Shown: in pieces, positions 8,356 through 59,016 of the stretch
Layout of the letters: each line of letters begins with the position of its first letter
How positions within the stretch are numbered: the stretch's first letter is position 1
Origin: Branchiostoma floridae
Lineage: Eukaryota; Chordata; Leptocardii; Amphioxiformes; Branchiostomatidae
Assembly (NCBI RefSeq): GCF_000003815.2
Contig: NC_049992.1
Span: 9,572,311 to 9,636,310 of the forward strand
DNA length: 64,000 nucleotides
Reading direction: 5' to 3'
Made by a program: the position numbers and the translations under genes
Notes under the pieces: model-generated
Database searches by the model: none
What the model was told of the DNA's origin: nothing
Seen by the model: only the letters and a program-made list of their open reading frames with translations

Positions 8356-8457
8356 ATCTCTGATCTGAGTCGGCGTTTGATGAGTTGTTTTGTTATAGAG
8401 TCTGCAGGATTTTTTTTTCTTCAGAACAGCCATGTACCGTACAACAAAAAGAAGTGC

Positions 8458-31413: not shown

Positions 31414-31513
31414 NNNNNNNNNNNNNNNNNNNNNNNNNNNNNNNNNNNNNNNNNNNNNNNNNNNNNNNNNNNNNNNNNNNNNNNNNNNNNNNNNNNNNNN
31501 NNNNNNNNNNNNN
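31414..31513. other. Assembly gap (100 N)
   Basis: Exactly 100 unknown bases, the usual placeholder for a gap of unknown length. It interrupts the last recognised SLC25 exon. Confidence 0.98.
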
Positions 31514-31711
31514 TAAAGAGCGAGAGCGTGCTGGGCAAAATCATCAGTCTGGTCCCTAAGCCTTGCCAGAGTCTCAATATTCCTCCTTCCCGCACTATAG
31601 ATTTGACGAAGAAGATAACGCCCCGCTGCGAGGTTGGGTCGCACTGCACAGCAGCCTGGATGCGCGTCTTGACTAAGTCCATAGGGGTCGCTGCAGTACA
31701 GCTAATACTGC
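31514..31711 (-). CDS. SLC25 exon 4, truncated by gap
   Basis: The acceptor CTTCCTTACAG is followed by SISCTAATPMDLVKTRIQ and the REGG...LWQGLGTRLMILP segment. It runs open into the N run at LSLF. Sequence on the other side of the gap (31267-31413) cannot be framed reliably. Confidence 0.85.
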
Positions 31712-33491: not shown

Positions 33492-33526
<35 letters not shown>

Positions 33527-34817: not shown

Positions 34818-35279
34818 GGTCGTCAAGCAGTTTACACAGTGCTATCCGTAATGACTCAGAAACATCCTATGTGATAGACGGAGGGTTCGAAACGATCAGT
34901 GAAACATTTTTAGTCCAGATTGACCCCCGACCTCGACTACTTACCAGCTGACGCGCTGTTACGTATCACTGATACTGATAGCATTTAGCATTACCGTAAA
35001 CACACATCATTCCAATACCATTGTGAAACAGGTTGCTGTGGTAACGGTTGCTACGGTTTACAGCAAGACCATTATTTTTGTTTACTTTAAGGAGACATAA
35101 TGTTGTATATCGCAAACATGCGATAAGAAATCTGGTTTCTATCATTTGCATAATAATACTTTAAGCACAAGTTAAACCGGTCGGCTGTTCTATATTCAGT
35201 GCCACGCGTAGTCGCAGAGGCTAGAGGAAGCCATTTCTGTTTAATCAGACGCGTCTCATGATCAGTCAAAGAAAGTCTT

Positions 35280-39104: not shown

Positions 39105-39271
39105 CGTCACGACACAGATCTCTATAAAATGCCGATCAGGCTCGTTAGGTTGACTCGGATCCCAGTTTGTGTACACAGCACTTGACCCATCTGCCCACCT
39201 CGATGCTATATTCGGACGTGTACGAAGCCCAATCCAGAATAATTGCCAGGTTTTCCAACTTGTGGATAAAC
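39105..39271 (-). CDS. C-type lectin domain 2, middle exon
   Basis: 167 bases, phase 1 to 0: [30 protein letters not shown] and EICVVT. It carries FWIGL and QPN. The final strand with the last two cysteines must be in a later exon, which was not recognised below 39105. Confidence 0.8.
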
Positions 39272-40865
39272 CTGTTGATCATAAGAAAAACGTCCGATTA
39301 TCTGGCAAGCAATCATCACACATGTTGTAATGATACATTGTCTTATAACTCGGGTTACGTAACATTACATGGCGAGTCTTGTGTTCCGTTATCGCTGGCC
39401 AATCATCAACCACATCCTTTAGTTTTGAAATCAGTCAAATACTGCAATAATACAAACATTTCGTGACCGAAATCAAAGAGTATAGTTGAAATTTCCGGAC
39501 CTTTCTATAAACTATAAGTCTTTTTATTGATATTCACCTAAACTAGACTCATTGTGATCATTAAGGTCTTTCTAATCTAATTCTAAGTGGCATAGAATAG
39601 TATCAAAGCTGGCAAAGCAGTGTAGCCGACCAAGGAGTATCACCAGCCACCGCGAATCTGCCATCACTGAAACATAGGAGCATTTCTATTCAATAATGGC
39701 GTTGCTGCCCCTCCCTGTGGCCATATAAACAGATATACAATGGTTGGTGAGACTCCTTGGTAGGCTACACTCCTTTGCCAGCTTTGATACTATCTTCTGT
39801 CACCGGTACATCTGTCTGGAGATTAAGGTCTTTCAAGATAGCCTTCTTTTGAAAATCAGTTGGTAATATAATAGGCGACAAAATAACCGGTGATGTCCTG
39901 ATCAGGGCTAGGGACACTTCGAAAACCAGGTCCCGGTTGTCACCTGTTTGAGGGAACGAAAAGTAAATGTGTATATCCGGGGATGTACACAAATCATTCT
40001 CATTCCTATTTTCACGTTTGGTGTGTATCCTGTCTTTCATATCATGCTTGTCGTTCCTGCAAACTGAAAAGCCGGGCGCCGGGTTGGAAATACGCCCTGG
40101 CATAATGAATGGGCTAGAACGATTATCAAAACTGTCCGGATTGTTTCTGCTTCGTTTAATGATATGAAACCCACTACGACATCTTGAAAATGTTTGGTAA
40201 ATGCATCAACTTTATCGTTAACGCGTTACTATCAGTCAAAAAACACTCATCACTATTGATGATGATAAGGAGCTCTTTATTGCCCACCATTCGAGATGAG
40301 ACTGGTAATGAAGTTGTTCTCGTCAGCGTCTTTGATGGAGGCAAGATCTGCACCATGACGTTCACATAGTGACCTTGCTCTAGGCCAGTCAACGGGAGAT
40401 CCCCGGCCCAGCCAGTAGCAGTGCTGTTTGTATTTGGACCATCCTTGCTTACAACGTACACGTGGAGCTGTAACAAACGATAGTGCAAGCGTTAATATCA
40501 AGATGCATGCATAACGTTAACGTGACGCCATGGAATCCTGGGATTGTTCGTTCCTTGACAAAGACTGGTGTGGTTAACTCCGGATGACCAGACTCCTTAG
40601 AGGCGGCGCGCGGCGGACTTGCTACCGATCCCTCGCCGCACGCCCCACTATACAGCTGGCCACCACTATCAGCTTACCTCAGCTCAGCTCACGGACCCTA
40701 GACCTAACTGTAACAAGTTTATAGTAGGTGCTAGCTGGATAGTGGGGCGGGTGTAAAGTTCAACGCAGGCGTGCGGTGGAGGATCGGTAGCAAGTCCTCC
40801 GTGCCTCGACTCTAAGGAGTCTGGTTACCCAAATTAAGGGGGGGGGGCTGTTCCGTCGACCACAT

Positions 40866-40936
<71 letters not shown>

Positions 40937-43900
40937 CAGTACTAGTGCACTATAATGTCCAGAACAAGATATAACGTTACGTTCTGCTGCATTACCGCTG
41001 AAAGCAGCTATAAAGTCTTTTTCTCTATTAGAAATATCATTAAACTTAGCTTTGTCTGACAGCAAAAATTTTCCCATCAAAAATGCCATTCTTAAGCCCA
41101 AAGAGACACATTTAAATGCTGTTAACGAATTTTTTTTTTTGCCATAGGCCTAGGCCTATGACTTAGTTCAACACAGATAGTGTTTTTTTTCCTAGAATAT
41201 GTTTTACCGGATAATGGACCAATGACCTTTTACTGGGCAGACAAAGTACGTCTCCCAGCCATGGCAGTTATTATATAGACTTCCTTGCAGTCTTCGGAAC
41301 GGGGCTGGGTTTTTTTTGGGGGGGGGGCGTTGGTCCGCGACTTTCAACGTTAGCTATGTTCTCTTATGCCGGGAAAGGGAGTTTGGCGAGGAAGGGAGTT
41401 TGCTGTGGAACGGAGATTGCCATGATAGTGAGCCTTTGCCCCATCCCTTGCAGTCTTCGGAACGGGGCTGTTTTTTTGGGGGGGGGGGGGGGGGGCTAGC
41501 TCTAAATGTTATGAAGTAGATTTCTAGCGAGGTCAACGCCCATGAAGCCGATTCTTTCAAATGCAGAGTAACCAATTAACGCCAGACCGGTGGCACGCGA
41601 GGGCCAGGGAGGAATGTTTCCCACCTATTGTCCGTCGATTACTAGCTGTTAAATACCGTCAATACATAGCAAAGGGCATCTTTGTGAGGGTTCCTTTAGT
41701 TTGCAGCATGTATTTTTATGAGCTGGTCCCTTTGAATGCTGGTTATATAGAATAGAAGGACGGACTGAATAATCAACAAACAACACGACTTGAGTGCATA
41801 AATTTGACAAACAAAAGTCACAACTTTTGGGGGTGACAACATTTTTGGGGAGTGACAAGAAGCGAAACATTTCAGTTACAAAAGTACGACCGTATAGTGA
41901 TAAAAAGTAAAATATTCAACAAAGAAAACTTGTTTAAAAAGTTTAAAAAATTGCACCACGTCAGGTTCGAACTCTGGTCCAAAAGTTACAAATCCAATCA
42001 CTAGTCAACTACGTCACGAAGCCTTGAGGTTCAAGTTGACGAAAAAATTGAACTAAAGTGACAAAGCGCGTAATAAAAGAGACAGAAATAAACAGTAGGG
42101 CCGTCATTTCAAATAGTTTAATGGCACGAAAACTCGCTACAGTCCCGTCATCTTTTGATCACCAAAGTAAACTTTTAAAACTGATATATAGAGTTGTTTG
42201 TGAGCAAGTAAAGCTCCCGCACGGTGCAAAATGACGAACAATAATGCCTGCTTGATTTGAGTTCACGGCATTTGCATGATAAGCAAGGGTGCGAAAAGCT
42301 CACAGTTATCGCCCAATGTCAGTGACCTGCCAACAGCTATTTGATTGGTCCTCGCTAGAAACTACTGAATGTCAAATAGTCTACACGGGGGGGGCGGGGG
42401 GCTTAGTCCGCGATTTTCAACGTTGGCTATACATCTCTTGTGCCGTGATAGCGAGTCTTTGACCCGTCCGACGCGGACCAACAAACACAATGCACAAACA
42501 CAACATGAGAAAATGAAGACCTGTTACTAATTTGTAATGATAACATTCAAACAGAATGACCACACCAGAAAGATCATAATTTGAAGATTGTTCAAAAAGT
42601 ATTTTTGCCGTATATATGATTCAGTTTAACACGGCTATATGTTTTTGTTTCTACAATATGTTTTATCGAAGAATGGTTCAGGACTACAATGACTTATAGT
42701 GCAGAGTAGTCAAAGTACGTATCCCAGCCATGACATTTATCATCTCATTTACAGTATTCTGACATGGAGATTTCACGTCATTCGGTATCTACACGATTTA
42801 CCGGAGTCTGACCTGTAATCTGATAAACCTCGATGGCCATATGTCCACCTTTGCCGTCCCGTGTACAGCCAGTTGTACGCCGGCGCTTCATGTACTTGTT
42901 ATGTCCATCAGCAGACCCAACACACGCGCCACCATACGTCACACCAAACACGGTAAAACCGCGAGAAAGTGCAACCTGGTAACACTTTTCGATGCCGTTT
43001 TGACGGTAAAAAAAGTGGCCATCAAGGCGTGGATCTGCCCCCTCGAGTGACGGCAAGAGTTTGTCGTAAGTGTCTTGCCAGCAACCCAGGCTGGTGTATC
43101 CATCGCCTCCTGTATGGGAAAGAGGGTATACAGTATTTCACGTGTTCTAGTTGGTTGCCAAGACCATATACCTGATCCCTACCAATATACGTTATTGACA
43201 CATTTTACAGAATAAGTCTATGACTTTGGTGTGATAATTGAAAGGGCAGCAAGATCAAACAATAATAACACAGATTAGATAAGAAATAAATGTTTACGAC
43301 TTCAGTCGCGGGCTTAATGTGAAAAGGCAATCTCCCAAATAGCGCACCAATTTATAATGTACCCAATTTATCATTGACGTAAAATTGGCTTACTATAACG
43401 ATGATGCCAAGACGCCCTACTCATTCCTCACTTATACCTTTGTTGTTGTGGTTGATGCACTGTTTACTATCAAAGATTACTAGTAAATTTTTTTCAAATT
43501 GATAGCGAAATAAGTTCTAAGTCGATGGTTTGAAATAACGTTTACGCAGTTTTCAATGCCTTAAAAGAATTAGCCGATTTCTATGCGTAAAAGTCATAAC
43601 TTTATATTACCTTTGTCGCAGTCCTCTCCTGGACCTGTAAAGCAATATGTACAACAACTTAAAGGAAGAAAACAGCTGAAACGTAGATTCAAAACCGTTG
43701 AAAATACTGAAAGCGATTTTTGTCACAGTTATCATTCATCTTTTATTCCAGACTGTGTGTTTATAAAGAATGAAAACATTACCTATTTGGCAGACAAAGG
43801 ACGCTTCCCCATATTGCCCGTCACAGTACTGATCATCCCACTGATGGCCTCTAGCTGCCCATAGATGAGCGCAGTTCTGGTAAGGTTGTTGTTTGTTCGG

Positions 43901-46900
43901 TTCTCCCGGAGCCCATTTTCTGAAGCTGCAGTCATCCAGTGGTGTTCCGTCTAACCACATCCATTTGTTTCCATTCTAGTTTAGGGAAGAGAGCCAAGCA
44001 AAATCAATTACGTCAAGACACATTTCAAACCTCATATCTTTTCCGCCACTGTAAAGCTGGTTTTGTCAGGTGTGTTTTGGTTAAAAAAAAGCTCGAGGTC
44101 AACATTTTAACGAGCTACAGCCAGAAAATTGTCATGATCACACCAGGATTTCACCCCGTCCTGATGGATCAGCCCGATCAGTGACGTCAAATTAAGATGT
44201 CACATATAATATAAATTTATAAAGTATATATATACTTGACTTAAGCTCATAGTTAGATAGATAGATTCATACTAGATAGATAGAACTTAGGTAGATACTT
44301 ACGGCCAAATTGTTCATCCCAAACCAGTAATCTCTTCTTGGATCAGCCCTCCGAATTAAAGTAAGGAGAAACTTGTACACAGCCTCCGTCTTAATCACTG
44401 CAAGTAGACCGCGATTCTGCGCACATGTCTGCTGGGCCGCTGTGTACGACTTCCTCTCCAGAAATACCTTGTACCTGGTGGAACCTTTACGTGCCCAATC
44501 ATAGGGATCTGCCGCATGGAAACACATTACCACAAACATTCTAGAAATTCTAGAAAAACATTGAAACATACAGTAATATAGCTTAGGATATATCAGAATT
44601 CTTTACACAAGCAGATATAAAAATATAGATATATATAGATATAGATAGATGAGAATAAGAATAGTCTCTTCATAATGTAAATTTAATGTCTAGAAATCGC
44701 CCCAAACCCCCGTCCGTTGAACTTCAGGGGAAGACGAAAGAATTGTTGGTCGAGCAGAAAAACGATGTTTTTGCGTGACTTCTTTTCAGCTACAGGAAGA
44801 CCGAGGTACTTTATTTCTTGAACTGTGAACTGTCACTATTCAACCGCTATAATTTCATCATCGCAAAAATTTAACACTCTTTTGCCCTCTCCCACTGACC
44901 CGAAACTACAGTAATTTCATACTAGTACCGTACTTTAAAGACACTTTCATTCTTGATTACAATTCGCATGCAATATGCTAATGATTCACACATTAACAAA
45001 GAAGGCATTGTTGTTATTCAAGAAAGAAAATGGACATCGTGTTGTATTTTTCTACAGATGCAACACGTTATGTGACCCTAAACTTTGGTTATGATTTGAA
45101 GTTTCCCTGCTTATTTACCCATTGCAAAACAAGGGCAGTTACTGTGGCACTTAATAGGCAAGTTACGACAAACTCACCCCGGTTACAGTTCTGTCCAGGC
45201 CACCCTTGCCTACAGGTGCACTTGTATCCGCCATCTTTGTTCCCACAGTCTCCATGTAGGCAGGATTCAGCGTTGCAGTCAGTGGCGACTGTTAAATCAC
45301 AGGTATTATTAAGGTTATGCAATTTAGTAACTGGGTTATTTAAAATGAAGGACATTCAAAGAGACATTTAATGATAACAAAGGACAACGCAACCGGTTTG
45401 ATATCTTTGATGCTGCTTGAAAATGATTAACCTTGTTGGCAGTTCTGCCCATGTCCATCCAGGCGAGGAGGTACATACGAAACTTAAAAAAATCAAAACA
45501 GAATGTTTAAGTTTACTGAAAAAAGAGAGGGAAACATAATGCAGGTAAACACTTATAGCGAAACTCACCTTTTTGACAGTTCTGTCCCCTCCATCCACGT
45601 GAGCAGGTACATTTGTATCCGCCATCTTGGTTCACACAGCGTCCACGTTGACATGGTTTTCTAGCACACTCGTCTATATCTGTGTGGTAAAGGAAAGGAA
45701 CTATGAACCCAACTTAGTTAATTAACTTTCAGGCAGAAGATTGCACCTAAATATGAATATGCTTGTGAAACATGAAGGGATTTGTAATGCAAATAAGAAA
45801 ACAGAAAATACGATTTTCTGATAGAAAATTGCAACCTTCAAACAGAATTATTACACCAGAAGGAGCTACCTTGCTGACAGTTCTGTCCAGTCCATCCAGT
45901 TAAGCAGGTACATTTGTATCCACCATTTTTGTTCACGCAGCGTCCATGTTGACAGGGGTTTCCGACACACTCATTTATGTCTGTGTGATAACGTTAGCAG
46001 AAAGAGCTTTCATACCGATATCATACTACGAAACAGTTTGGATAAGATACAGGACTTTTATAACAAAGAGAAGTAACGAATCTAAAGAAAATTATTGTAA
46101 AACAGAAGGAACTCACCTTGCTGACAGTCTTGTCCAGTCCATCCGAGCGAGCAGATACAGCGGTATCCGCCATCTTGGTTCACACAGTGTCCATGTTGAC
46201 ATGGTTTTCTGGTACATTCATTTATGTCTGTGTGATAACGGAAAAAATGTACTTACTTCAAAGAACGTTTGCAACGATGATACAACGTAAAAGCTTGGAT
46301 AAGATATATATTTTGTGAAACAAAGAGAAATAAGAAATGGAAGAGATTTGTTTTACAACTGAATGATAAGTTACCGTGCTGACAGTTCTTTCCAGTCCAT
46401 CCCGGTGAGCAGGTGCATTTATACCCGCCATTTTGGTTCACACAGCGTCCATGTTGACAGGGGTTCCTGGCACATTCATCTATATCTGTGTGATAAAGGA
46501 ATGGAACTATGAACCTATCTTAATTAATCAACTTTCAGAACATTGCACCTAAATATGAAACAAAGAGATTTGCAATGCAAAGAAGAAAACAGAAAATATT
46601 ATTTTCTGATAGAAAATTGTAACCTTTAAACAGAATGACCACACCTGAAGGAACTCACCTTGCTGACAGTTCTGTCCAGTCCATCCACGTGTACAGGTAC
46701 ATGATACCCGCCACTTTGGTTCCAGCGTTCATGTTGACAGGGGTTTCTGGTACACTCATTAATGTCCGTGTGATAACAGAAAGAGCTATCATACCGATAT
46801 CATTCTACGTAAAGGCTTGGATAAGATACAGGGATTTTGTAAGAAAATTGTTTCACATCAGAAAGAACTCACCTTGTTGACAGTTCTGTCCAGTCCATCC

Positions 46901-48445: not shown

Positions 48446-48512
<67 letters not shown>

Positions 48513-51500
48513 CAACAGCATAACTCAAGAAGCCTTAGATGGATCCTGATGATATTTGGTAGGTGGGTAGGGGTCGGCAAAACGAAGGTCAAGTTCGATA
48601 ATGGGCCCCCTAGCGGCTTGCTAATGTACTGCAGCAGAACATCTATTTTTGATACCTCGTGTTTTGGACATGCTGTGGTGGTGATTTTTGAGTGGTAGAT
48701 AGCCCTTGGGGCAGAGAAGAAGTGCTGTGAGTTTGAACCCCCTTTTTTGAAACTGCATGCGCCGATTTCCTTTCAAACTTGTTTAATTATGCATATCAAC
48801 AGCTAATTTGCATAATCAATGAGGAAATTTTATAAATCCACTGCATTTCATGATAGGACTTTCAAACTTGTCACATATATAGCTGAGAAAGAGTGAAATG
48901 TCAATAACGTTACATATTAATTATACAAATGACGACCTCATTTGCAGAACGAATGAGAAAATATGAACGTGTTGACGGATCGTCATGATTTTTGGTATGT
49001 AGATAGCCTAAGTGAAGCCTTACGTAACGAAATAAATACTAATAATGTGATAGTAATTATGCAAATTAATAGCTAATTTGCACAATTCATGAGGAAAGTT
49101 TATAAATCCACTGCATTCCATGATAGGACTTTCAAACTTGTCACATATGTATAAAACTGAGAAAGGGAGAAATGTCAATACATATTAATTATGCAAATGA
49201 CGACCTCATTTGCATGATTAATGAGAAAATATGAACGTGTTGACGGATCGTCATGATTTTTGGTATGTAGATACCTTAAGTGAAGCCTTACGTAACGAAA
49301 TAAATACTAATAATGCAAATAAACAGCTAATTTTAGTAATTAATGAGGAAATTTTATAAATCTACTGCATTCCATGATAGGACTTTCAAACTTGTCACAT
49401 ATGTAACTGAGAAAGAGAGAAATGTCAATACATATTAATTATGCAGATTATCACCTCATTTGCATAGTTATTGAGAAATGCTATAATTCCATACTGGTAA
49501 ATGATAGGAATTTCATACTTACATCATTATGGAGCTTAGTGAAGGTGAACATGCCCGGTGGAATTATGAGAGTTGATGGTAGCTTTCCACGGACCAATTT
49601 AGCGCATCTTGGTTAACTTGGTAGGTGTATATGAGCACTTACCATTTACCAAATACCCTATGTTTCTTTTGGACAAGCAACGATGCATATTTTCTGTCAA
49701 ATATAAAATTTTGTAGAAAAAAATAGAGAAGCAGCTTCATAGCTGTTTGTGTATCACTGTCATGCGTTGAACAAAGCATATTGTCAGTGTCAAAAGCAGT
49801 AGATATTTACCGTCGCATGTGTAATTGACTTCCAGGTACTTGAAGGTTTTACGACAAGGATCTACTGTGCGTTCGGCCCTGATAGAGCAGCTGGACTTCC
49901 CCTGGCAGCTGGCCCTGACCCAAGTCGTGCTGTCGGGGCTGCGGCAGTCGGTGGTAAGGATTGAACTGTGGGGACAAACCTCAGGGCCTCTGGTCCGGCC
50001 GTACAGGGCAGACACGATGTTAATATTTTTTCCAGCAGGACAGCTGATGGTCAATGTTTGGCCCTCACAAGCTCGAACGGGCCCCAAGGTTCCTGCAACA
50101 TATAATTATAACCGTGAGTGTCCTCCTTTGCAGACTAGCTCCAGATACTTTCTTCTTGATGAAGATACAATCGGACTACTCCGAGCGACAGACTTTGTAC
50201 AATCCTAATGATATTTGGTAGGTAGGTAGGGGTCGGCAAAACGAAGGTTAAGTTCGATAATGGGCCCACTACCAGCTTGATAAGGAACTGTAGCGGAACT
50301 TTAAGACGGAACTTTAATTTTTGATATCTCGTGTTCTGGACATGCTGTGGTAGTGACTTTTAAGTGGCAGATAGCCACTGGATGTTTCTGATAATGAAAT
50401 TCTTTTTTTTTTACTATCAACAGGATACTCCTGTCATGTAGATATTTTTTCTGCGGGTTCCGAGACAATATCTAGCTTGTCTTGGTAATTGAAGAGGGGT
50501 ATGAAGGGTATATACATAAGTACAAACTTGATGTAGTTATGACCCCTTCCTAAAAATAAGGACATTAAATGTTATACTTGTGACGGAACAGCATCTAAAA
50601 ACATTGTAACAGCCACACAGTTTTAGAAAACAGGTACACATAAGGAATTCCCTGAGGATTGTAACCACAGAGATAGCAATCTTCTTTGGTTACAAACCGT
50701 CAGCTAGTCTGGACTAACTAGCTCTTGAGTGATGTCTACCTCTTTCTCTTGTTACCAACTTTCTGCAGTGGTTTTTCTGTAATGTGACTGCCCCTAGGCC
50801 TTCCTTTTTTGACTGGTACACTATGTTTGTCTTTCTGTGTTAGAAGAAAATGTGTGTTTTTCCATAAAACTCAAGGAAATGTGATGAATTGTGCAAAGTC
50901 TACCTATATACAACTTATCAAGTGCTCCATCTGGACAACACCTGTGGGTGACTGTCCAGTTATCTAGGACAAATGCCTAGGGGAGCTTGCATGACCCAAA
51001 TTCCTGCCATTAAAATTCCTACGGACTAACTTCTCACATTGCAAACATGCCTGTGGAACACGTGTGGCTGACTGTCCAGTTATCTAGGACAAATGCCCGG
51101 GGGCGCTTGCATGACCCAAATTCCTGCCATTAAAATTCCTCCGGACTAACTTCTCACATTGCAAACATGCCTGTGGACTGGCATTCCTGTGGAAAAATGC
51201 CTGTGCAATTCCTAGAATTTTTGCAGACTGAACACAATAATATATCATTTGGCTCGCCCCTGAGGCGTCGCCAATAAACAAAGCAACCACGGCCACCTCC
51301 TCGCGTCCACCACAATTTACAGCGTAGGACGAAGATGTATGGGTATTTATTATTCTATGAAAAATGGATCAATTATTTTCTATCTACTTAGAACTAAAGA
51401 TCAAATCAAGTTTTCATATTTACAATGCCAAAAAATGACCATGCATATAGACCGGTACAGTCCATGGAGAAGGACAGTTACATTTATATCAACCATCTTG

Positions 51501-54500
51501 GTTCACACATTGCCCTTATTAAAGCATGATTATAGTTTACTGGCACACTCATCAATGTCTGTGTGAGGATGGGAAAATCATAATTTTGAATAACACATGT
51601 GTAACATTGAACGTCAAGTCGGTCACTTCATGAGAATAACTCACCCTGTTGACAGTTCTGTCCAGTCCATCCTTTCATACAGGTGCATTTGTATCCGCCA
51701 TCTTGGTTCGAACAACTACCAAGAAATTTGTTCTACAACAGAAAAAACTCACCATCCTGACAGTTCTGTCCAGTCCATCGGGTACACACATCTATGTCTG
51801 TGTGATAAAGGTGTGGAATGATATTTATCTAACTTATTCATCATTCAAGCCGATGATAACATCTCAATACTTTAATAAAATGAAGACCTAGTACCTGCTC
51901 TTAATTTGTAGTGCCAAGTTTCAAACTGAATGGCCACACCAGAAAGAGCTCAACTTGCTTGACAGTTTTGTCCAGTCCATACAAGTGAGCAAAACATTTC
52001 TATCCACCATCTTTGTTCCCACAGCGTCCATGTTTCCAACACACTCATTGATGTCTGCGTGATAACAGAAAGAGCTATTATACCGATATCAATACTACGT
52101 AAAGGCTTGGATAAGATACAGGGATTTTGTAAGAAACTCACCATCCTGACAGTTTTGTCCAGTCCGTCCGGGTGAGCAGGTACATTTGTATCCGCCATCT
52201 TTGTTCACACAGCGTCCATTTCGGCATGGGTTTCTGGCACACTCATCTATGTCTGTTTGATAAAGGTATGAAACAATATGTATCTAACTGAATATACTCA
52301 ATAACAACTACACCCAAATGAAAACAAAGAGCTGTTCTTAATTTGTAATAAAAAGACGGAAACAGAAAAGTATGATTTTTTAATAGAAATTGGCAACTTT
52401 CAAACAGACTGATTTCTTCGAAAAGAGTTCACCTTGCTGACAGTTCTGTCCAGTCCATCCAGGTGAGCAGGTACATTTGTATCCGCCATCTTTGTTCACA
52501 CAGCGTCCATGTTGACAAGGGTTTCCAATACACTCATTTATGTCTGTGTGATAACAGAAAGAGCTATCATAACGATACCATGCTACGTAAAGGCTTGGAT
52601 AATATAAAGGAATTTTGTAAGAAGTTTGTTTTACAACAGAAGGAACTCACCCTGTTGACAGTTCTGTCCAGTCCATCCAGGTGCGCAGGTACATTTGTAT
52701 CCACCATCTTTGTTCACACAGCGTCCATTTTGGCATGGGTTTCTGGCACACTCGTCTATGTCTGTGTGATAAAGGCATGAAACAACATGTACCTAACTGA
52801 ATCTACATCCAACCTGATGATAACCCCTAAATGTAAATAAAGAGCTTTTCTTAATTTGTGATAAAAATAAGAAAACAGAAAAGTATGATTTTTTAAAGAA
52901 AATGGCAACATTCAAACAGATTGATTACATCGATAGGAGTTCACCTTGCTGACAGTTCTTTCCAGTCCATCCGGATGAGCAGGTACATTTGTATCCACCA
53001 TCTTTGTTCACACAGCGTCCATTTTGGCATGGGTTTCTGGCACACTCGTTTATGTCTGTGTGATAAAGGCACGAAACAACATGTACCTAACTGAATCTAC
53101 ATCCAACCTGATGATAACCCCTAAATATAAATAAAGAGCTGTTCTTAATTTGTGATAAAAATAAGGAAACAGAAAAGTATGATTTTTGAATAGAAACTGG
53201 CAACTTTCAAACGGACTAATTTCATCGAAAAGAACTCACCTTGCTGACAGCTCTTTCCAGTCCATCCGGGCGAGCAGGTACATTTGTATTCGCCACCTTG
53301 GTTCACACAGCGTCCATTTGCGCATGGGTTTCTGGTACACTCATTGATGTCTGTGTGATAGCACAAAGAGTTATTTCATACAGATATCATACTACGAAAA
53401 AGCTTGGATAAGATACAGGGTTTTTGTAACAAAGAGAAGTAACGAAACTAAAGAAAATTATTGTACAACAGAAGGAACTCACCTTGCTGACAGTTCTTTC
53501 CAGTCCATCCGGATGAGCAGGTACATTTGTATCCACCATCTTTGTTCTCACAGCGTCCATGTTGACAGGGGTTTCTGGCACACTCATCTATTTCTGTGCG
53601 ATAACGGAGAGGGCTTTTATCCTGGTCATACTGGCAAACGCTTGGGTAAGATACAGGATTTTTGGAACAAAGAGAAGTAACGAATCTAAAGAAAAGTATT
53701 GTACAACAGAAGGAACTCACGTTGCTGACAGTTCTGTCCAGTCCATCCGGGTGAGCAGGTACATTTGTATCCACCATCTTTGTTCACACAGCGTCCATTT
53801 TGGCATGGGTTTCTGGCACACTGGTCTATGTCTATGTGATAAAGGCATGAAACAACATGTACCTAACTGAATCTACACCCAACCCGAAATAACACCTAAA
53901 TGGAAATAAAGAGCTGTTCTTAATTTGTGAGAAAAAGAACAAAACAGAGAAATATGGTTTGAGAAATTGAAGACTTGTTCTTAATTCGCAATGGCAACAT
54001 TCGAGCAGAATGACCACACAAACAAGAACTCACCTTGCTGACAGTTCTGTCCAGTCCATCCAATATATATTTTTTTAAACAAATATATAACGGGGGCCGC
54101 CCTAAGATGCCCCCTGCCCTAAGATGCCCGGATTTTTTTGCTGATCTTATTATGCATAAGTACGCCGTGTTTGTTGCCACTGACTATGATGATTAGAAAG
54201 GTAAATAAACCAAGTCCAAACAAACAGCTTTTTTTTCTATTAGAAATTTTTTTACACATATTCACTTCCCTTTTTTTTTGAAGACAGAATTTTCACAATA
54301 ATGTTGGTAGCGCCGAATCACTGTGGTCACCTGTTACTAGGTATTGGTGGCTCGTGTCCATAAATAAACAACCAGTAAAAAACAGCCACACAACTGTCAT
54401 ACACATAAGAAATAAAGCTTCACAAAACACTACAAATATTGGTCTTCAAATGTTTGTTGAGTAGAAGACCGGCCATAGAAAAAACAACATAAGCATCACC

Positions 54501-57500
54501 GCCGTTGTTTTCCCCAGGGAGCGTGGCCCCGCAGGTGGCAGACGAACGCCCAAAATAATTGTTACTCTAACAAATGATTTCGTACCGTCTATAAAAAATG
54601 AAATTTGTGATGTCGAATATGTTTCCCAATACGTACACAGAGTTTTTTTTTTGTGGTGATTTGGCGTTGTCGTTTTTCGTAATGATTTTGTTAGTCGGGC
54701 CGCCGCATTCAATGCATTTCGCCCATTTCCCATGAAAACACAACCTGGATTGTGAAAGATTTAGCCCTCCCCGCGGGAGACAAGAAGCACACAGAATCAC
54801 AATTCTACTGTTGATAGAAAGCTAATATGTTATAAAATTAGAATTTTTATTTACGTTTGCCTAAATTGTTCACCAGCTTCCGAAGAGAGCAAGTTAGGGC
54901 GCACTGTTTAACGCGGCTCAAAATCGGAATTTATATTCACGATAACGTCCTCGGTGTTTGCCAGTTGTAACGCGGAGGGTGAAGAGTTCATGAACAGTAT
55001 GACTGCCTTCCTTCTTCAAGTATGGTCTCTAGATGAATGTGTTAAAAATTCATTGACCAAAACTTGACCACTCTTTGGCAACTAGTGATGGAGCGCCGTG
55101 AGTTCGAGCGCGTAAAAAGCGGGCATCTTAGGGCGGCCCCCGTTATATTACGTGGTAATCCAGCTGTCATTGTCTCCATGAATACAACGTTATTGGTTTT
55201 GTAGCTATTGCTCAAGCACTCTTAGTTATACTGTTAACTTTCATTACATACCAGTGGTTGACAGATGTGCGAGGGTTGTCAGTAAGATCTCGGTGTCCCC
55301 ACGTTCGGTACTTGTTCCTGGACCTGTCTTCTGCCATCCAAACAGTGAGGAAGATGAGGTTGAGTTGACGACGGCTGAGCTGGTCTTCTTGTAGAAAGGA
55401 GTCCACCAAGAGCTGTTTGAATTCTGTTGGATAACCCAGCTCGTCACGACAGCTTCATTCTTCTACAAACAGGTGCATTTCAAAGATAGATATACATGGA
55501 GAAATAATAGAATTTATCTTTTTTTCACAGCTTATATGTTTAATATCTTCTCCGCTTCCTGTGTCAGAGAGTGATGAATCCTACTGCTGCATGTTTTCAA
55601 TTGGTAATGTCAAAAAAGAACAATTTCTATTTTGCAAAGACCTACCAACCAGTCTCTGACATAAAAAAGATAATACCTGAAACAGAAGATACAGTCGTAC
55701 TAATGCAGAACGTCACTCATTTGTATTATTATTTCTATCTAACAGACTAACTAATCTCGATTTGAAGCCAGAGCCTACAAATTTCAAATACGTTTGCGCT
55801 ACAAGCTGATGCACTGTTATCATGGCCAACGGCAGGGCTTTTGGTATCCATTCTCCAGAACAGCGAGCAGATTATTATTGGACTGAGCAGAGCACTTTGG
55901 ACTAATGTTTGTAGCCTCTTACGTCTTAAACTTACATATCTGATATTTTGTGTTAAACTTCTCTTGTATTCACTGGATCATAATAACCTCCAGCGGGAGT
56001 CTTCACACTTCGTTGAAAGTAAAACAATCTTGAGATTTATACCAAAGATCTTGAGATTTTGTGTTAAATTTTGAGATGTTTTGACTTGACCTTGAGATGT
56101 TTTGATATAATCTTAAGATGTTTAAGAACAATCTGAAGATGCTTCGCAAAAATCTTTGAATGACATTTTGAAAGTTGCGTTGAAAGAGTCCCATGTTTTA
56201 AGATGCATGGAAAAAATCTTGAGATCATTTAAAAGAATCTAGAGACTTTTTGAAAGATCTTCAGATTGTTGTGACAAATCTCAAGACTGTTTCGAAAAAT
56301 CTCAAGATTGTCTAGAAAAATCTCGAGATTGTCTAGAAAAATCTCGAGATTTATCACAAAATCTCGAGATTTAAAAAAAAATTAATGAGGTGTGAAGACC
56401 CACGGTAATTATGATACGCTGTGTAACCCAGGTTTTCTCAAAATTTCAGATGTGTACCTTTATCTATTAGACAACATTAGTCTAAAGTGCTCTGTTAAGC
56501 TCAATGATAATCTGCTCGCTGTTTCAGGCATTGGACATTCCTTACCTTTTGATGGATTGCAACGTGAAATTGCATAACATCGGGATCTGTCCGGGAGGTG
56601 AACCCAGAACCTCTGGATTCTTGATGTGGCCATCTAACCGCCAGGTCAAACAATGTCACTTTTACCTCTACTGGCCTTCCTTTCCATCAGAACATTATGA
56701 ATACCATGGCTTACCCTAGAATACCCTCCAGGTACCAGATGAGTTGATAGCATGCCAGCGGTGACAGCCAATGCTAGTATCAGAAAGCCGAAACCCAATA
56801 CAAGCCAGCAAACCTTACTGGATTTCATCAGGCCCCACAACTCCCCCGCACGATCTAAAATGCAATACAAAACATGATCATAACTCTAATTGTAAACTGT
56901 ATGGTTAAAAGTACCGAAAAAGTACTTAAAACCAGAGTTCATACCACGACCTTACACTTTCGACTAAAACATATCAACCTTGACGATTGATGCAACCATC
57001 GAATTCACACCATTTACCAATATGGTATAATAGCATTTTGTAATAAATGATTCAAATCAAGTAATTCAAATGATTCAAATCAATAATTTGCTTAGATGAT
57101 ATTGATCGATATTCCCTTTCTCATATTCCCTATCTTTGAACAATTTCACCAATTATGCAAATTAGCTTCTGTTTTGCATGATTAGCATCTTGAAGTAGCG
57201 AACTAACTACAAGCCATAATCTAAATTCTAGTAGATTATATGAATGCCAGAAAAATGCAATCGATTTGGTTTAATCATAAGCCCCCTTGTGATGGTGTAG
57301 TGATTTATTGAATATGGACATACCTTTAGCTTTGGCTGCAAAGCTCCGTTCATCCTCTTTTCCATCTCCGGTAGTTTCCTCTGTTTTATAGTACTGCTCG
57401 GAGACTTCCTTCTGCTCTGGCCACACAACCACGTGATCCCCCATGTCAAGATGGCAAGGCGCCGTGTGGGGGGGTGCAGAGGGTTGCAAGCCTGGACCCT

Positions 57501-59016
57501 GCGCATTTTCATCGACATCTTCTAGATCCACGTCTTCGTAGTTACTATCAATTTGTTCGTTCATACCGTCCTCTTGTAGACATTCTTTTTCTTCCTTGGC
57601 TTCTTCGTCATCTTTGGTTTCTTCTGCTTTTGTTTCCTGTTGTTCAGCTTCTGTTCCTTCTTTTTCTTTGGCTTCTCTTTGTTCGGCTTCTTCTTCTTCC
57701 TCTCGGCTTGCTTGTTCCTTTTCTTTCTTCATCATAACAGAATTGCGAGGAGGGAGTTCGGGGGCGACACGTTTTAAGCCAGAGCCCACCTCCACTTTTA
57801 CCCCTCCCACAACTACGTGCATACAAGCCTCTCCTCCTTCCTTTCTGCCTGCTTGTTCCTTTTCATTCTCATCTACGGCAGGATGGCGAGGAGGGAGTTC
57901 AGGGGGCGCTTCATGTTTCAAACCGTGACCCAGCATCACGTTTATTCCGCCCAACTCTAGATCTATGTCCTCGTATTTGTGGACTTCGTGTTCTTCTTGC
58001 TTCCTGCCTGTTCGTTCTTCTTTTTCCTCCTTCATGGCGGAATGACGGTGAGGGTGTTCAGGGGGTGCTGTAGGTTTCAAACCGTAACCGTAACCGTAAC
58101 CGTAACCCAGCATCATATCGATATCCTTTCCACACAACTCTGAATCTATGTCAGGATCCTCATATTTATGGCCCTCGTCTTCTTCTTTCTTTCTGCCTGC
58201 TTGTTTCTTTTCTTTCTCCTCCATGACAGGATGGCGAGGAGGGAGTTCAGGGGGCGCTTCATGTTTCAGACCGTGACCCAGCATCACGTTTATTCTGCCC
58301 AACTCTAGATCTATGTCCTCGTATTTGTGGACATCGTGTTCTTCTTGCTTCCTGCCTGCTCGTTTCTTTACTTTCTTCTCCATGGTGGGATGACGAAGAG
58401 GAAGGTCAGGGGGCGCTGCATGTTTCAAACCAGCGCCCAGAACCACGTTTCCACCTCCATACACTAGATCCACATCCTCGTAGGTATGGTGCTCTTCTTC
58501 CTTCGATATGTTTGCTTGTTCCCTTTCCTTCTCCTTCTCTAGCATAGCAGAATTGCGAGGAGGGAGGTCGGGGGCGACACGTTTTAAGCCAGAGCCCACC
58601 TCCACTCTTACCCCTCCCACATCTACGTGCATACAAGCCTCTCCTCCTTCCTTTCTATCTGCTTGTTCCTTTTCTTTCTGGTCCATGACAGGATGGCGAG
58701 GAGGGAGTACAGGGGGCGCTTCGTGTTTCAAACCGTGACCCAGCATCACATCTATTCCACAATTTCCACCCAACTCTAGATCTATCCCCTCGTAATTATA
58801 GCCAGAGTCGCCCTTTTCTTGCTTTCTGTGAGCTCGTTCTTTTTCTTCCTCCATCATTGTGGAATGACGAGGAGGGAGGATAGGGGGCGCTGCATGTTTC
58901 AAACCCGAGCCCAGAACCACGTTTCTACAGCCATACACTTGATCCACGTCCTCATAATTATGGTCCGCTTGTTCGTACACGCGCTCCGGAGACGGTTCTG
59001 TGTTGTTAAATGCCAT
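39105..59016 (-). CDS. Candidate type II membrane lectin receptor (tail repeats, TM, EGF, SUEL, EGF, CTLD, WSC-like, CTLD)
   Basis: All exons lie on the - strand and most extracellular exons are phase 1-1, so they splice without frame change. Order from the N-terminus: cytoplasmic repeat exon 57324-59016, TM exon near 56725-56854, possible stalk exon 55252-55462, seven intact EGF exons (53831 down to 52142), SUEL domain 49811-50092, six EGF exons (46983 down to 45178), CTLD 44303-44508 plus 43783-43975, micro-exon 43611-43634, WSC-like 42813-43109, and a second CTLD 40288-40467 plus 39105-39271. No signal peptide was seen; the TM near residue 580 would act as a signal anchor, placing the repeats in the cytosol and the lectin domains outside. 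The 3' end of the second CTLD was not found. One gene is an inference: two adjoining genes (tail/TM and EGF/lectin) remain possible. Confidence 0.5.
39573..39835. mobile_element. MITE family A, copy 3
   Basis: Inverted ends share TAGTATCAAAGCTGGCAAAG and GAGTGTAGCC.ACCAAGG. A 12-base direct repeat (TTAAGGTCTTTC) occurs at 39561-39572 and 39833-39844; it may be a target duplication, although TTAAGG also ends copy 1. Confidence 0.75.
40288..40467 (-). CDS. C-type lectin domain 2, first half
   Basis: 180 bases, phase 1-1: [32 protein letters not shown] and [10 protein letters not shown]. It joins directly to the WSC-like exon in phase. The donor G|GTGGGC is somewhat weak. Confidence 0.85.
40587..40833. 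mobile_element. MITE-like element with long inverted ends
   Basis: The ends ACCAGACTCCTTAGAG and CTAAGGAGTCTGGT are inverted, as are GGACTTGCTACCGATCC and GGATCGGTAGCAAGTCC. Arms are about 60 bases. It lies upstream of the second CTLD's first exon. Confidence 0.75.
40869..40934. repeat. CA dinucleotide microsatellite
   Basis: About 33 uninterrupted CA units. Confidence 0.98.
41165..42750. repeat. Duplicated intronic segments with G-runs
   Basis: TTGCAGTCTTCGGAACGGGG is followed by T and G runs at 41286 and again at 41450. TCCGCGA.TTTCAACGTT appears at 41334 and 42410. ATATGTTTTA.CG..GAATGG and AAAGTACGT.TCCCAGCCAT recur near 41200-41265 and 42655-42735. These are local duplications in the intron between the WSC-like and second CTLD exons. 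Confidence 0.6.
42813..43109 (-). CDS. WSC-like Cys-rich domain exon
   Basis: 297 bases, phase 1-1: [53 protein letters not shown] and [13 protein letters not shown]. The LGCW...KC...A...G...FGV..GG.C.GSA layout is the WSC-like module common in lancelet and echinoderm extracellular proteins. It is a putative carbohydrate-binding domain and is spliced between two CTLDs. Confidence 0.8.
43611..43634 (-). CDS. 24-base micro-exon linker
   Basis: The acceptor CTTTACAG, 24 bases in phase 1-1 (PGEDCDK) and donor G|GTAATA link the first CTLD to the WSC-like domain. It adds a single cysteine. Confidence 0.55.
43783..43975 (-). CDS. C-type lectin domain 1, second half
   Basis: 193 bases, phase 0 to 1. 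It encodes [29 protein letters not shown] and QWDDQYCD...SFVCQI. The EPN motif with WDD fits a mannose-type calcium site, although WND is the norm. Confidence 0.9.
44248..44300. repeat. GATA/TAGA microsatellite
   Basis: Short TAGATAGA runs; a second AT/GATA-rich run is at 44617-44652. Confidence 0.7.
44303..44508 (-). CDS. C-type lectin domain 1, first half
   Basis: 206 bases, phase 1 to 0. It encodes [36 protein letters not shown] and YWFGMNNLA: the first CTLD helix with its cysteine and the WIGL-like WFGM strand. The donor is GCC|GTAAGT. Confidence 0.9.
45178..45288 (-). CDS. EGF-like exon 13 (intact, divergent)
   Basis: 111 bases, phase 1-1, but starts [20 protein letters not shown] and lacks the calcium-binding DIDEC start. 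It is the most divergent intact copy and adjoins the lectin exons. Confidence 0.85.
45431..45476 (-). pseudogene. EGF exon remnant (3' half only)
   Basis: GTACCTCCTCGCCTGGATGG then ACATGGGCAGAACTGCCAAC is the end of an EGF exon with a frame-breaking deletion and no first half. The donor-like AAG|GTTAAT remains. Confidence 0.7.
45569..45679 (-). CDS. EGF-like exon 12 (intact)
   Basis: 111 bases, phase 1-1, [15 protein letters not shown] and GWRGQNCQK. Confidence 0.85.
45870..45980 (-). CDS. EGF-like exon 11 (intact)
   Basis: 111 bases, phase 1-1, [15 protein letters not shown]; donor AAG|GTAGCT. Confidence 0.85.
46117..46227 (-). CDS. EGF-like exon 10 (intact)
   Basis: 111 bases, phase 1-1, [15 protein letters not shown] and [12 protein letters not shown]. 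Confidence 0.85.
46375..46485 (-). CDS. EGF-like exon 9 (intact)
   Basis: 111 bases, phase 1-1, [15 protein letters not shown] and GWTGKNCQH; donor G|GTAACT. Confidence 0.85.
46659..46765 (-). pseudogene. EGF exon with lost acceptor and frameshift
   Basis: It aligns to the intact EGF exons over its whole length but carries 2- and 3-base deletions, and the acceptor CACAG has become CACGG. It is unlikely to be spliced in. Confidence 0.8.
46873..46983 (-). CDS. EGF-like exon 8 (intact)
   Basis: 111 bases, phase 1-1, [15 protein letters not shown]. Glu of DIDEC is changed to Gly. Confidence 0.8.
47242..47355 (-). mobile_element. Tiny 5'-truncated retrotransposon end with 12-bp target duplication
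   Basis: The reverse strand encodes [35 protein letters not shown] and a stop at 47247-47249, the typical last residues of a LINE-type polyprotein, followed by a short ATG repeat tail. The exact 12-base repeat ATTTTACGATAT at 47230-47241 and 47356-47367 flanks it. Confidence 0.75.
47420..48434 (-). mobile_element. 5'-truncated non-LTR retrotransposon, reverse-transcriptase C-terminal part
   Basis: A 236-codon frame at 47660-48370 begins [20 protein letters not shown] and contains [35 protein letters not shown] and a Cys/His knuckle ([17 protein letters not shown]). This is the usual C-terminal region after the polymerase in LINE proteins. The reverse strand has AATAAAG and a run of about 20 A at the 3' end. 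TTGAGCTT occurs at 47412-47419 and 48435-48442, a possible target duplication. It is a dead partial copy in the intron between the SUEL and second EGF block. Confidence 0.85.
48451..48511. repeat. GT dinucleotide microsatellite
   Basis: About 30 uninterrupted GT units beside the retrotransposon 5' junction. Confidence 0.98.
48560..48690. repeat. Dispersed repeat, copy 2 of 3
   Basis: Contains GATATTTGGTAGGTGGGTAG, AAACGAAGGTCAAGTTCGAT and TGGACATGCTGTGGTGGTG, shared with 50213-50370 and, more weakly, 2823-2945. Confidence 0.75.
48780..49500. repeat. Tandem array, period about 254-269 bp, nearly three copies
   Basis: GAGGAAATTTTATAAATC recurs near 48820, 49090 and 49345. Each is followed by CATGATAGGACTTTCAAACT, a TTAATTATGCAAATGACGAC block and (in two copies) GTTGACGGATCGTCATGATT. 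Non-coding, AT-rich. Confidence 0.85.
49811..50092 (-). CDS. SUEL-type (galactose/rhamnose-binding) lectin domain exon
   Basis: 282 bases, phase 1-1, between TGTTGCAG and G|GTAAAT. About 94 residues: [20 protein letters not shown], then [30 protein letters not shown] and YLEVNYTC. Cysteine spacing and the CEG...LxISC and YLxVxYxC motifs are diagnostic of the SUEL/Gal_Lectin fold, which binds galactose or rhamnose on extracellular glycans. It sits between the two intact EGF blocks and can be spliced in or out without frame change. Confidence 0.9.
50213..50370. repeat. Dispersed repeat, copy 3 of 3
   Basis: Carries the same ordered blocks as 48560-48690, with an added duplicated GGAACTTTAA. 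It lies just upstream (gene sense) of the SUEL exon. Confidence 0.75.
50939..51178. repeat. Tandem duplication, 120-bp unit, two copies
   Basis: GACTGTCCAGTTATCTAGGA starts at 50950 and again at 51070. The two units are about 95 percent identical by eye. Confidence 0.9.
51462..51567 (-). pseudogene. EGF exon with in-frame stop
   Basis: The acceptor CACACAG and start DIDECAS are kept, but a TAA follows within ten codons and the middle is degraded. Confidence 0.75.
51645..51712 (-). pseudogene. EGF exon, second half only
   Basis: Encodes [10 protein letters not shown]...GWTGQNCQQ with a good donor G|GTGAGT, but the first half is missing and the upstream sequence is unrelated. Confidence 0.75.
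51753..51797 (-). pseudogene. Internally deleted 45-base EGF mini-exon, still in phase
   Basis: The acceptor [22 protein letters not shown] and donor G|GTGAGT are all intact. The middle 66 bases of the EGF exon are gone, leaving 45 bases in phase 1-1. It has only two cysteines and cannot fold as EGF, but it could be spliced without frameshift. Confidence 0.65.
51951..52054 (-). pseudogene. EGF exon with deletions
   Basis: Starts DINECVGN, loses bases in the first loop and shifts frame; the donor has decayed to AAGTTGAG. Confidence 0.75.
52142..52252 (-). CDS. EGF-like exon 7 (intact)
   Basis: 111 bases, phase 1-1, [15 protein letters not shown]. The usual GWTG is GRTG here. Confidence 0.85.
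52433..52543 (-). CDS. EGF-like exon 6 (intact)
   Basis: 111 bases, phase 1-1, [15 protein letters not shown]; donor AAG|GTGAAC. Confidence 0.85.
52651..52761 (-). CDS. EGF-like exon 5 (intact)
   Basis: 111 bases, phase 1-1, [15 protein letters not shown] and [14 protein letters not shown]. Confidence 0.85.
52945..53055 (-). CDS. EGF-like exon 4 (intact)
   Basis: 111 bases, phase 1-1, [15 protein letters not shown] and GWTGKNCQQ. Its surrounding intron is nearly the same as that of exons 1 and 5, showing recent duplication. Confidence 0.85.
53240..53350 (-). CDS. EGF-like exon 3 (intact)
   Basis: 111 bases, phase 1-1, [17 protein letters not shown] and GWTGKSCQQ. Confidence 0.85.
53483..53593 (-). 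CDS. EGF-like exon 2 (intact)
   Basis: 111 bases, phase 1-1, [15 protein letters not shown], six cysteines, calcium-binding-type start. Confidence 0.85.
53721..53831 (-). CDS. EGF-like exon 1 (intact)
   Basis: 111 bases, phase 1-1, DIDQC...[17 protein letters not shown] pattern with six cysteines and GWTGQNC. It uses a TAG acceptor. Confidence 0.85.
54034..54061 (-). pseudogene. EGF exon end, broken near a transposon
   Basis: Only the last 28 bases (GWTGQNCQQ) and donor of an EGF exon remain. About 24 bases of AT-rich sequence separate it from the terminal-inverted-repeat element starting at 54085. The missing part is not present beyond the element. Confidence 0.75.
54085..55148. mobile_element. 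1.06-kb DNA transposon with 28-bp terminal inverted repeats
   Basis: The terminal repeats 54085-54112 and 55121-55148 are exact reverse complements (ATATAACGGGGGCCGCCCTA continuing AGATGCCC). TATA at both borders could be a 4-bp target duplication absorbed into the repeats. The left end has a second GCCCTAAGATGCCC just inside. The interior has no recognisable transposase; short reverse frames carry scattered CxxC motifs only. It is probably a non-autonomous element; superfamily not assigned. Confidence 0.85.
55252..55462 (-). CDS. Possible stalk exon, reading frame uncertain
   Basis: With the strong acceptor CTGTTTGTAG and donor ACTG|GTATGT the exon is phase 0 to 1, matching the EGF exons downstream. 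It would encode a Ser/Thr-rich segment with NSS and NST glycosylation sites. A second frame, using a weaker acceptor (GAATGAAG, exon from 55450), reads [20 protein letters not shown] and onward to a stop at 55212; that would make a short separate type II protein. Confidence 0.4.
55977..56415. mobile_element. Element with short inverted ends and internal AATCTNGAGATT array
   Basis: The ends ATCATAATAACC...AGTCTTCACACTTCGTT and ATTAATGAGGTGTGAAGACC...TAATTATGAT are roughly inverted and match the inner motif of the hairpin at 5405-5727. Between them is an array of degenerate units of about 21 bases containing AATCTCGAGATT or AATCTTGAGAT, most regular at 56270-56375. Confidence 0.65.
56725..56854 (-). 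CDS. Transmembrane exon
   Basis: The acceptor ATTTTAG and 2-base start fit the previous exon and give [14 protein letters not shown], then a hydrophobic helix ([17 protein letters not shown]) and TAGMLSTHL. Lys and Arg on the N-side against few charges after it fit a type II orientation. Two donors are possible: CTG|GTACCT (exon low end 56736, phase 0) or GAGG|GTATTC (56725, phase 2). Confidence 0.7.
57324..59016 (-). CDS. Cytoplasmic tail exon with eight YED/PxLPPR repeats
   Basis: ATG at 59016 opens 564 codons plus one base to donor AAAG|GTATGT. Eight repeats of about 49-63 residues span roughly residues 20-440. The typical unit is an acidic tyrosine motif (YEDVD, YEDID), then GLKH.APP.LPPRH, then a basic/acidic EKE linker. 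Two repeats (about 128-176 and 398-440) have CMHV in place of the tyrosine motif. A degenerate ninth unit (NYEDVD) follows an E/K-rich stretch near residue 495. PxxPxR segments fit class II SH3 ligands and YEDV/YEDI fit SH2-type sites; this is inference. One unit has an in-frame GYGYGYG expansion. Neighbouring exon B supplies the transmembrane helix. Confidence 0.85.
58081..58107. repeat. Coding hexanucleotide CCGTAA repeat
   Basis: Four tandem CCGTAA units on the + strand encode GYGYGYGYG on the coding strand within repeat 6 of the cytoplasmic tail. Confidence 0.9.

Follow-up and report, generated by a model that had tools for sequence, protein, structure and literature searches.

Does a run of exons on the minus strand of the Branchiostoma floridae genome, encoding in turn a repetitive tail, a membrane helix and a long series of lectin-type domains, belong to one gene or to two, and how might a receptor of this composition signal? 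The exons lie in a 64,000-nucleotide stretch of contig NC_049992.1, here called the window, and an original prediction from the sequence alone had read them as a single type II receptor. Starting from the exons, frames, domains, motif pattern and homologues that we observe, we conclude with moderate confidence that the 24 exons at 59016-37752 constitute one gene and that its product is a type II cell-surface lectin receptor, predicted to bind glycans and to signal through a YED[I/V]/PxxPxR tail, with transcript unity and topology both being predicted.

The 24 exons join in frame to encode 1633 residues (ATG at 59016, stop at 37752) and follow the order repeat tail, membrane helix, Ser/Thr stalk, EGF 1-7, SUEL, EGF 8-13, CTLD1 (two exons), a 24-bp linker, WSC and CTLD2 (three exons; Table 1). 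GT-AG borders and frame are kept at all 23 junctions. No donor ranks below the 95th percentile of the minus-strand GTs of the window, and the acceptors span the 83rd to 99th percentiles of AGs. The expected run of tail repeats, one hydrophobic helix, 13 intact EGF exons, SUEL, CTLD, WSC-like and CTLD exons was thus found on one strand with compatible phases, and the junctions 57324-56854, 55252-53831 and 52142-50092 singled out beforehand were the same ones recovered in our model. The predicted extent of 39105 to 59016 holds for the exons that it covered but was too short: a last CTLD2 exon at 37817-37752, which supplies the final tryptophan and cysteines of the domain together with the stop codon, extends the gene beyond 39105 (and rules out that CTLD2 is a broken fragment), and a stalk exon at 55462-55252 is to be added. 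The EGF-SUEL-CTLD1-WSC cassette begins and finishes in phase 1. If the WSC donor goes unused (its intron starts at 42812), an in-frame stop at 42780 makes a 1507-residue form ending there possible.

Table 1 Exons of the receptor gene model and a neighbouring insertion, by position in the window.
Feature	Positions	Strand	Details
Exon 1, N-terminal cytoplasmic tail, 8 PxxPxR and 6 YED/YEG-[IV]	57324..59016	-	564 codons and one base; P0001 and P0002 share the start Met
Exon 2, predicted transmembrane helix, model residues ~573-607, phase 1-0	56715..56854	-	exon 1 junction also in P0002
Exon 3, Ser/Thr-rich stalk, phase 0-1	55252..55462	-	36% S+T, two N-glycosylation sequons; aligns with the P0013 stalk
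Insertion, ~1.06 kb, 31-nt terminal inverted repeats (97% complementary)	54085..55148	.	in stalk-EGF1 intron; close to truncated EGF remnant 54061-54035
EGF 1	53721..53831	-	111-bp exon; Pfam
EGF 2	53483..53593	-	111-bp exon
EGF 3	53240..53350	-	111-bp exon
EGF 4	52945..53055	-	111-bp exon
EGF 5	52651..52761	-	111-bp exon
EGF 6	52433..52543	-	111-bp exon
EGF 7	52142..52252	-	111-bp exon
SUEL (rhamnose/galactose-binding lectin) domain exon, phase 1-1	49811..50092	-	Pfam 1.8e-21; PDB 5h4s 2.5e-59
EGF 8	46873..46983	-	111-bp exon
EGF 9	46375..46485	-	111-bp exon
EGF 10	46117..46227	-	111-bp exon
EGF 11	45870..45980	-	111-bp exon
EGF 12	45569..45679	-	111-bp exon
EGF 13, divergent	45178..45288	-	111-bp exon
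CTLD1 exon 1	44303..44508	-	Lectin_C 5.8e-17 together with second CTLD1 exon
CTLD1 exon 2	43783..43975	-	EPN and WDD motifs
Linker exon, 24 bp	43611..43634	-	splice-joined model
WSC domain exon	42813..43109	-	Pfam, profile and fold comparisons; stop 42780-42778 if donor unused
CTLD2 exon 1	40288..40467	-	Lectin_C; PDB matches; CTLD tree
CTLD2 exon 2	39105..39271	-	Lectin_C; PDB matches
CTLD2 exon 3, phase 0, stop codon, GEFGRWDDRKCDMRLHYICKM	37752..37817	-	absent from the original prediction; read from sequence

The ectodomain modules belong to families of the glycan-binding type, as had been proposed for SUEL, CTLD and the WSC-like domain and as Pfam, PDB and fold comparisons now indicate. 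The SUEL exon, scanned alone, matched PF02140 at 76.8 bits (cut-off 31.4; 1.8e-21) and also matches three repeats of PDB 5h4s, while Lectin_C was found in CTLD1 (5.8e-17) and in CTLD2 (4e-12, scanned alone, a value for two of its three exons). Full CTLD2 matches 176 PDB sequences at E <= 0.001, mannose-receptor-type chains standing first among the best 60 of these 176. The WSC exon scored 24.0 bits against PF01822 (4.7e-5), just under the cut-off of 27.8; all 11 aligned relatives matched that family at E <= 0.1, a profile of the WSC-like family gave nothing significant against PDB sequences (best E 0.057), and the identity of the domain as a WSC fold was settled by fold comparison alone. When Pfam was run on the entire 1507-residue model, it gave EGF-type families and one of coagulation-factor type but neither SUEL nor Lectin_C, so the absence of a family from a whole-length scan means little. 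From these family memberships, the four ectodomain modules (SUEL, WSC and two CTLDs) are predicted to bind glycans. The WSC-like domain (GCWxD...RAIPTLEG...KCYQVA) recurs in the lancelet proteins P0008, P0009, P0046, P0050, P0056, P0060 and P0061, where its partners include F5/8, VWA, Kringle, pentraxin and SUEL; given so many different partners, it is a widely shuffled module.

Each of the 13 EGF exons has phase 1-1 and AG/GT borders, and Pfam recognized 12 EGF_CA stretches in the whole model. The count of 13 intact exons stands as originally given, with about seven decayed remnants to be added beside and between them (51459-54061 and 45452-46766); these are truncated, frameshifted or stripped of splice sites. 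The remnant near 51797-51753, 45 bp long, keeps its splice sites and contains no stop. The array is clearly in flux. Pooled dN/dS is 0.37 across the 13 exons and 0.34 across the first 12, and the intact exons look to be under selection. The intron between SUEL and EGF 8 holds a tandem repeat (268 bp in 2.7 copies, 48784-49478), and a 283-residue minus-strand ORF at 47663-48511 resembles, by eye, the end of a non-LTR retrotransposon reverse transcriptase. Elsewhere on the minus strand of the window, two ORFs at 6854-8457 look by eye like parts of a rhodopsin-type G-protein-coupled receptor, a 585-residue open frame at 16454-18208 has one stretch that looks by eye like a PH domain, and ORFs at 31287-34866, interrupted by a 100-N assembly gap (31414-31513), look by eye like a mitochondrial carrier.

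Lancelet relatives bear most directly on whether the tail and the lectin domains form one protein. When the CTLD1-CTLD2 stretch was used as query, 59 of 2911 candidates reached E <= 1e-5, among them P0013, a 663-residue B. lanceolatum prediction named VCAN in its source, in which part of CTLD1 is missing. Two blocks align with our model: one from the tail end through the helix and stalk to the first EGF (140 bits, 41% over 195 columns), the other running from EGF through CTLD1 and WSC to CTLD2 (311 bits, 46% over 382 columns). We also placed 51 CTLDs, the two of the window and hand-chosen segments from 15 of 66 proteins, in a maximum-likelihood tree, where CTLD1 of the window pairs with CTLD1 of P0013 (support 100/95), and the two CTLD2 domains group alongside one long-branch row from P0054 (96/93, with the P0013 CTLD2 row only 43% filled). 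Because P0013 carries helix, stalk, EGF, CTLD1, WSC and CTLD2 in matching order, it supports the single-gene reading, and together with the tree pairing this colinearity argues for a single type II receptor as first proposed. P0013 differs from the window in having one EGF and a partial one (12 of the 13 EGFs are absent), in lacking SUEL, and in its tail, which is tyrosine-rich and contains neither PxxPxR nor a YED-type motif. Since it has no SUEL, the two SUEL junctions and most EGF-EGF junctions draw on phase, splice sites and intact exons only.

Other lancelet proteins share either the tail or the lectin modules with the window. At least seven proteins matched the tail at E <= 0.01 among 7983 candidates scored, all of them from Branchiostoma and none near-identical to the window. 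P0001 (B. floridae) and P0002 (B. lanceolatum) have a long repeat tail that is 53-54% identical to that of our model, and P0002 also has the helix exon (67% identical to the window's), but unlike our model neither annotation includes an ectodomain; the source label of P0002, cilia- and flagella-associated protein 251-like, looks misplaced. The lancelet proteins P0004-P0007 combine one tail unit (YEDVDLK...PPELPPR) with a CTLD, P0004-P0006 with a helix related to the window's and P0007 with no predicted helix, and differ from the window in having a single repeat and no EGF, SUEL or WSC. At the level of predicted proteins, these show that tail-to-lectin fusion occurs in lancelets. SUEL, CTLD and WSC-like domains occur together, as in the window, in P0050, P0056 and P0059, and P0060 (B. 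floridae) is a predicted type II protein with a long tail, one helix, a Thr-rich stalk, SUEL and a WSC-like domain; BLAST found no window-related helix or tail in any of these four. The P0002 tail gene of B. lanceolatum and the P0050 SUEL-F5/8-CTLD-WSC-like gene may lie on one chromosome (longest contig 20566309 for both).

The suggestion that such a combination is unprecedented therefore needs qualifying: P0013 has most of the ectodomain order, SUEL, CTLD and WSC-like domains meet in P0050, P0056 and P0059, and the tail family exists in other lancelets, but a ladder tail joined to a long ectodomain was seen in no other protein found. The joined architecture, when sought in other proteins, was matched as a whole by no predicted protein found, and no protein of 830-2640 residues with this tail and helix was present among 898 candidates (E <= 0.05).

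The CTLD2 of the window might have been a special mark common to P0004-P0007, an idea that we dropped after considering BLAST ranks and the CTLD tree. In the 307 BLAST matches to CTLD2, P0007 ranked 4th, P0005 and P0006 16th and 17th and P0004 77th, mixed with mannose-receptor CTLDs, and in the 51-CTLD tree the CTLDs of P0004-P0007 did not pair with window CTLD2. As CTLD2 is no closer to P0004-P0007 than to mannose-receptor CTLDs, this link says little; its weakness is offset by the CTLD tree.

These annotations also allow the locus to be divided. A tail-helix-stalk receptor, with or without a short CTLD end, could be one gene and the EGF-SUEL-EGF-CTLD-WSC part a separate secreted or type I lectin, either downstream or nested in an intron. 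The P0001 annotation continues past the tail-exon donor and that of P0002 past the TM-exon donor, and both therefore stop, after tail or helix, where a gene split would fall; the short P0004-P0006 have the form tail-TM-stalk-CTLD, with Lectin_C as their sole precomputed Pfam domain; and the stalk exon could join CTLD2 directly, in phase 1. Lancelet gene models are moreover described as prone to false fusions, one of which can be predicted in two species and one of which was split by ESTs that revealed a stop codon and a signal peptide (PMC4967905). We nevertheless regard two genes as distinctly unlikely, given that P0013 holds TM, stalk, EGF, CTLD1, WSC and CTLD2 within one predicted protein in matching order and that both of its CTLDs group with those of the window. 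A separate lectin gene would also be expected to begin with a signal peptide near the EGF exons, as the original prediction had pointed out. The gene region contains a single signal-peptide-like start exon (54406, with a second ATG at 54400), which sits inside the inverted-repeat insertion, and since the same scan at the thresholds used gave three candidates on the minus strand and four on the plus strand of the whole window, this start before EGF 1 is at chance level and was rejected. A signal-peptide start for CTLD2 at 40516 was likewise set aside, as a stop lies immediately upstream in its frame, which lacks an ATG.

The locus might instead have two principal products: a long form that includes the EGF-SUEL-CTLD1-WSC cassette, and either a short form in which the stalk is spliced to CTLD2 or a form ending after WSC. 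That the whole cassette starts and ends in phase 1, that a skipped WSC donor leads to an in-frame stop, and that P0060 and P0050 finish shortly after their WSC-like domain all agree with such an arrangement, but a short form of this gene was not found among the proteins searched, and we rate this arrangement as unlikely. That the locus is decaying, a once-complete receptor losing exons and perhaps no longer made, seems very improbable: the roughly seven EGF remnants with their frameshifts, truncation and lost splice sites, one of them with the insertion close by, would fit decay, but none of the 24 model exons has lost its reading frame or its borders, EGF dN/dS is 0.37 and constraint appears to act on the YED codons. 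We therefore return to the single receptor gene and to what its tail may do.

The tail (564 residues, 37% charged) consists of eight repeat units, whose starts lie 49-63 residues apart, and an end piece. It is followed by the one hydrophobic stretch in the model (residues 573-607), and the N-terminus is hydrophilic (the best 19-residue stretch starting within the first 59 residues has a hydropathy of 0.53), from which a type II topology is predicted. PxxPx[RK], the class II SH3 ligand pattern, occurs eight times in the tail (shuffle mean 0.43), and Y[EDN][DEGN][VIL] occurs six times (shuffle mean 0.22); neither count was reached in 2000 shuffles. The looser Yxx[LIV] shows a less clear excess (six versus 2.56, reached in 47 of 2000 shuffles). 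A phosphotyrosine with acidic residues after it, and I or V after those, is a fitting ligand for Src-family SH2 domains, and at the level of motifs the tail carries the ligand pattern of Src-family or Grb2/Nck proteins. The repeated SH2/SH3-type sites proposed for this tail are in this sense real as motifs. Because the tail copies were made by duplication and are thus non-independent, the shuffle test overstates the excess, and what the copies have kept is, among these sequence comparisons, better evidence than the counts.

Conservation among the repeat units is uneven. P, P and R are kept in all eight PxxPxR sites while the residues between them vary (e.g., PDLPLR and PEHPHR). Across four aligned units, pN was 0.078 and pS 0.615 for the YEDxD pentamer (six nonsynonymous versus eight synonymous differences, summed over six pairs of units), 0.118 and 0.229 for the PxxPxR stretch, and about 0.25, close to pS, for the middle part and linker. 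The YED codons accordingly look constrained and the PxxPxR stretch appears mildly so, whereas the whole tail unit is constrained only loosely, as the pooled dN/dS of 0.62 across four units and the excess of pN (0.077) over pS (0.049) in the young pair of units 5 and 7 indicate. A complete Y-x-x-[IV] is missing in three of the eight units: units 3 and 8 have no tyrosine there, and unit 6 reads YEDP. The spacing is regular, with exactly 23 residues from tyrosine to the next PxxPxR at four of eight sites and 23-24 residues from the PxxPxR arginine to the next tyrosine at five of eight; the 23-residue gap is found in the P0001 and P0002 tails too. The two PxxPxR sites of P0003 are close to chance expectation (154 of 2000 shuffles), and the P0013 tail has neither PxxPxR nor YED-type matches.

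The ITAM pattern YxxL/I-x6-12-YxxL/I and hemITAM (an acidic cluster and GYxxL, in the pattern used) gave no match in the tail, and both readings were dismissed. ITIM ([SIVL]xYxx[ILV]) matched once, at residues 491-496, which is at chance level (772 of 2000 shuffles).

How such a tail might work can be outlined, with ligand binding, phosphorylation, partners and role all predicted. Glycan binding by SUEL, WSC and the two CTLDs, held out on an EGF stalk, would cluster the receptor; Src-family kinases would dock at PxxPxR sites via SH3, phosphorylate the YED tyrosines and stay bound via SH2; and Grb2- or Nck-like SH2/SH3 adaptors would be drawn to this ladder as well, producing a multivalent patch that signals for uptake, adhesion or immune responses. 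Candidate components have been reported in lancelets: amphioxus Lck is described as associated with an inhibitory receptor that it phosphorylates in Jurkat cells (PMC8211107), and a proposed phagocytic receptor as co-precipitating with amphioxus Grb2 (PMC10199209).

Tentatively, and with more doubt than confidence, we propose that one tail contains both halves of a multivalent SH2/SH3 network in its Tyr-23-PxxPxR-23-Tyr ladder. Once phosphorylated, it would act as a scaffold with two sides, on which Src-family kinases and adaptors condense with no second, proline-rich partner needed, and lectin ectodomains (EGF, SUEL, CTLD and WSC) would have been swapped onto such tails by phase-1 exon shuffling, to yield a family of tunable innate receptors that has no equivalent in vertebrates. 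In the nephrin system, phosphotyrosines and proline sites are on different proteins, whereas the window tail would hold both on one chain. Nephrin with Nck and N-WASP offers a parallel in how it works, multivalent SH2/SH3 binding being reported to cluster this receptor into micrometre patches (PMC4238058). Lancelet exon shuffling was found by Huang and colleagues to be biased to 1-1 phases (PMC4284660), and the C-type lectin domain is reported as over-represented among dispensable lancelet genes (PMC12373286); as reported, both fit the pattern of the window gene.

The nearest known receptors differ in part from this design. Dectin-1, CLEC-2 and other type II C-type lectin receptors of vertebrates have a stalk, a C-terminal CTLD and an N-terminal tail with a tyrosine motif, all features that are predicted for the window receptor too. 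Their short tail has one hemITAM or ITIM, and they have no EGF array, SUEL, WSC or PxxPxR ladder; the window receptor is unlike them in its long PxxPxR-ladder tail, EGF array, SUEL and WSC. Among solved structures (PDB), CTLD1 and CTLD2 find some of their best matches in CTLDs of the mannose receptor family, a family of type I proteins that start with ricin-B and FN2 domains and have 8-10 CTLDs. The polycystin-1/REJ family as a whole is described as employing C-type lectin, SUEL, WSC and EGF modules, but unlike the window with REJ, GPS, PLAT and PKD domains and 1-11 membrane spans (PMC1934368); we rejected this assignment, as the model has no room for REJ, GPS or PLAT, Pfam listed none of them and there is one membrane segment. 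A teneurin was also rejected: after the EGF array come only CTLD1, linker, WSC and CTLD2, and Pfam listed EGF_TEN but no NHL or YD. The receptor family is named in no title or abstract start found within the open-licence literature. What is known, then, is the type II lectin receptor as a kind; what is new is the alternation of docking sites along the tail, and the attachment of such a tail to a long EGF/SUEL/CTLD/WSC ectodomain.

If the single-receptor reading is right, it would supply a concrete case, backed by homology, for the debate on whether the domain combinations annotated in lancelets are genuine or arise from annotation errors (compare the positions reported in PMC4284660 and PMC4967905). 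Chordate lectin-receptor signalling would then include, besides ITAM, hemITAM and ITIM, a long tail of repeated SH2 and SH3 docking sites, by which a single receptor could gather many signalling proteins at once, and the lancelet gene would offer a testable single-chain model of how receptor valency sets signalling.
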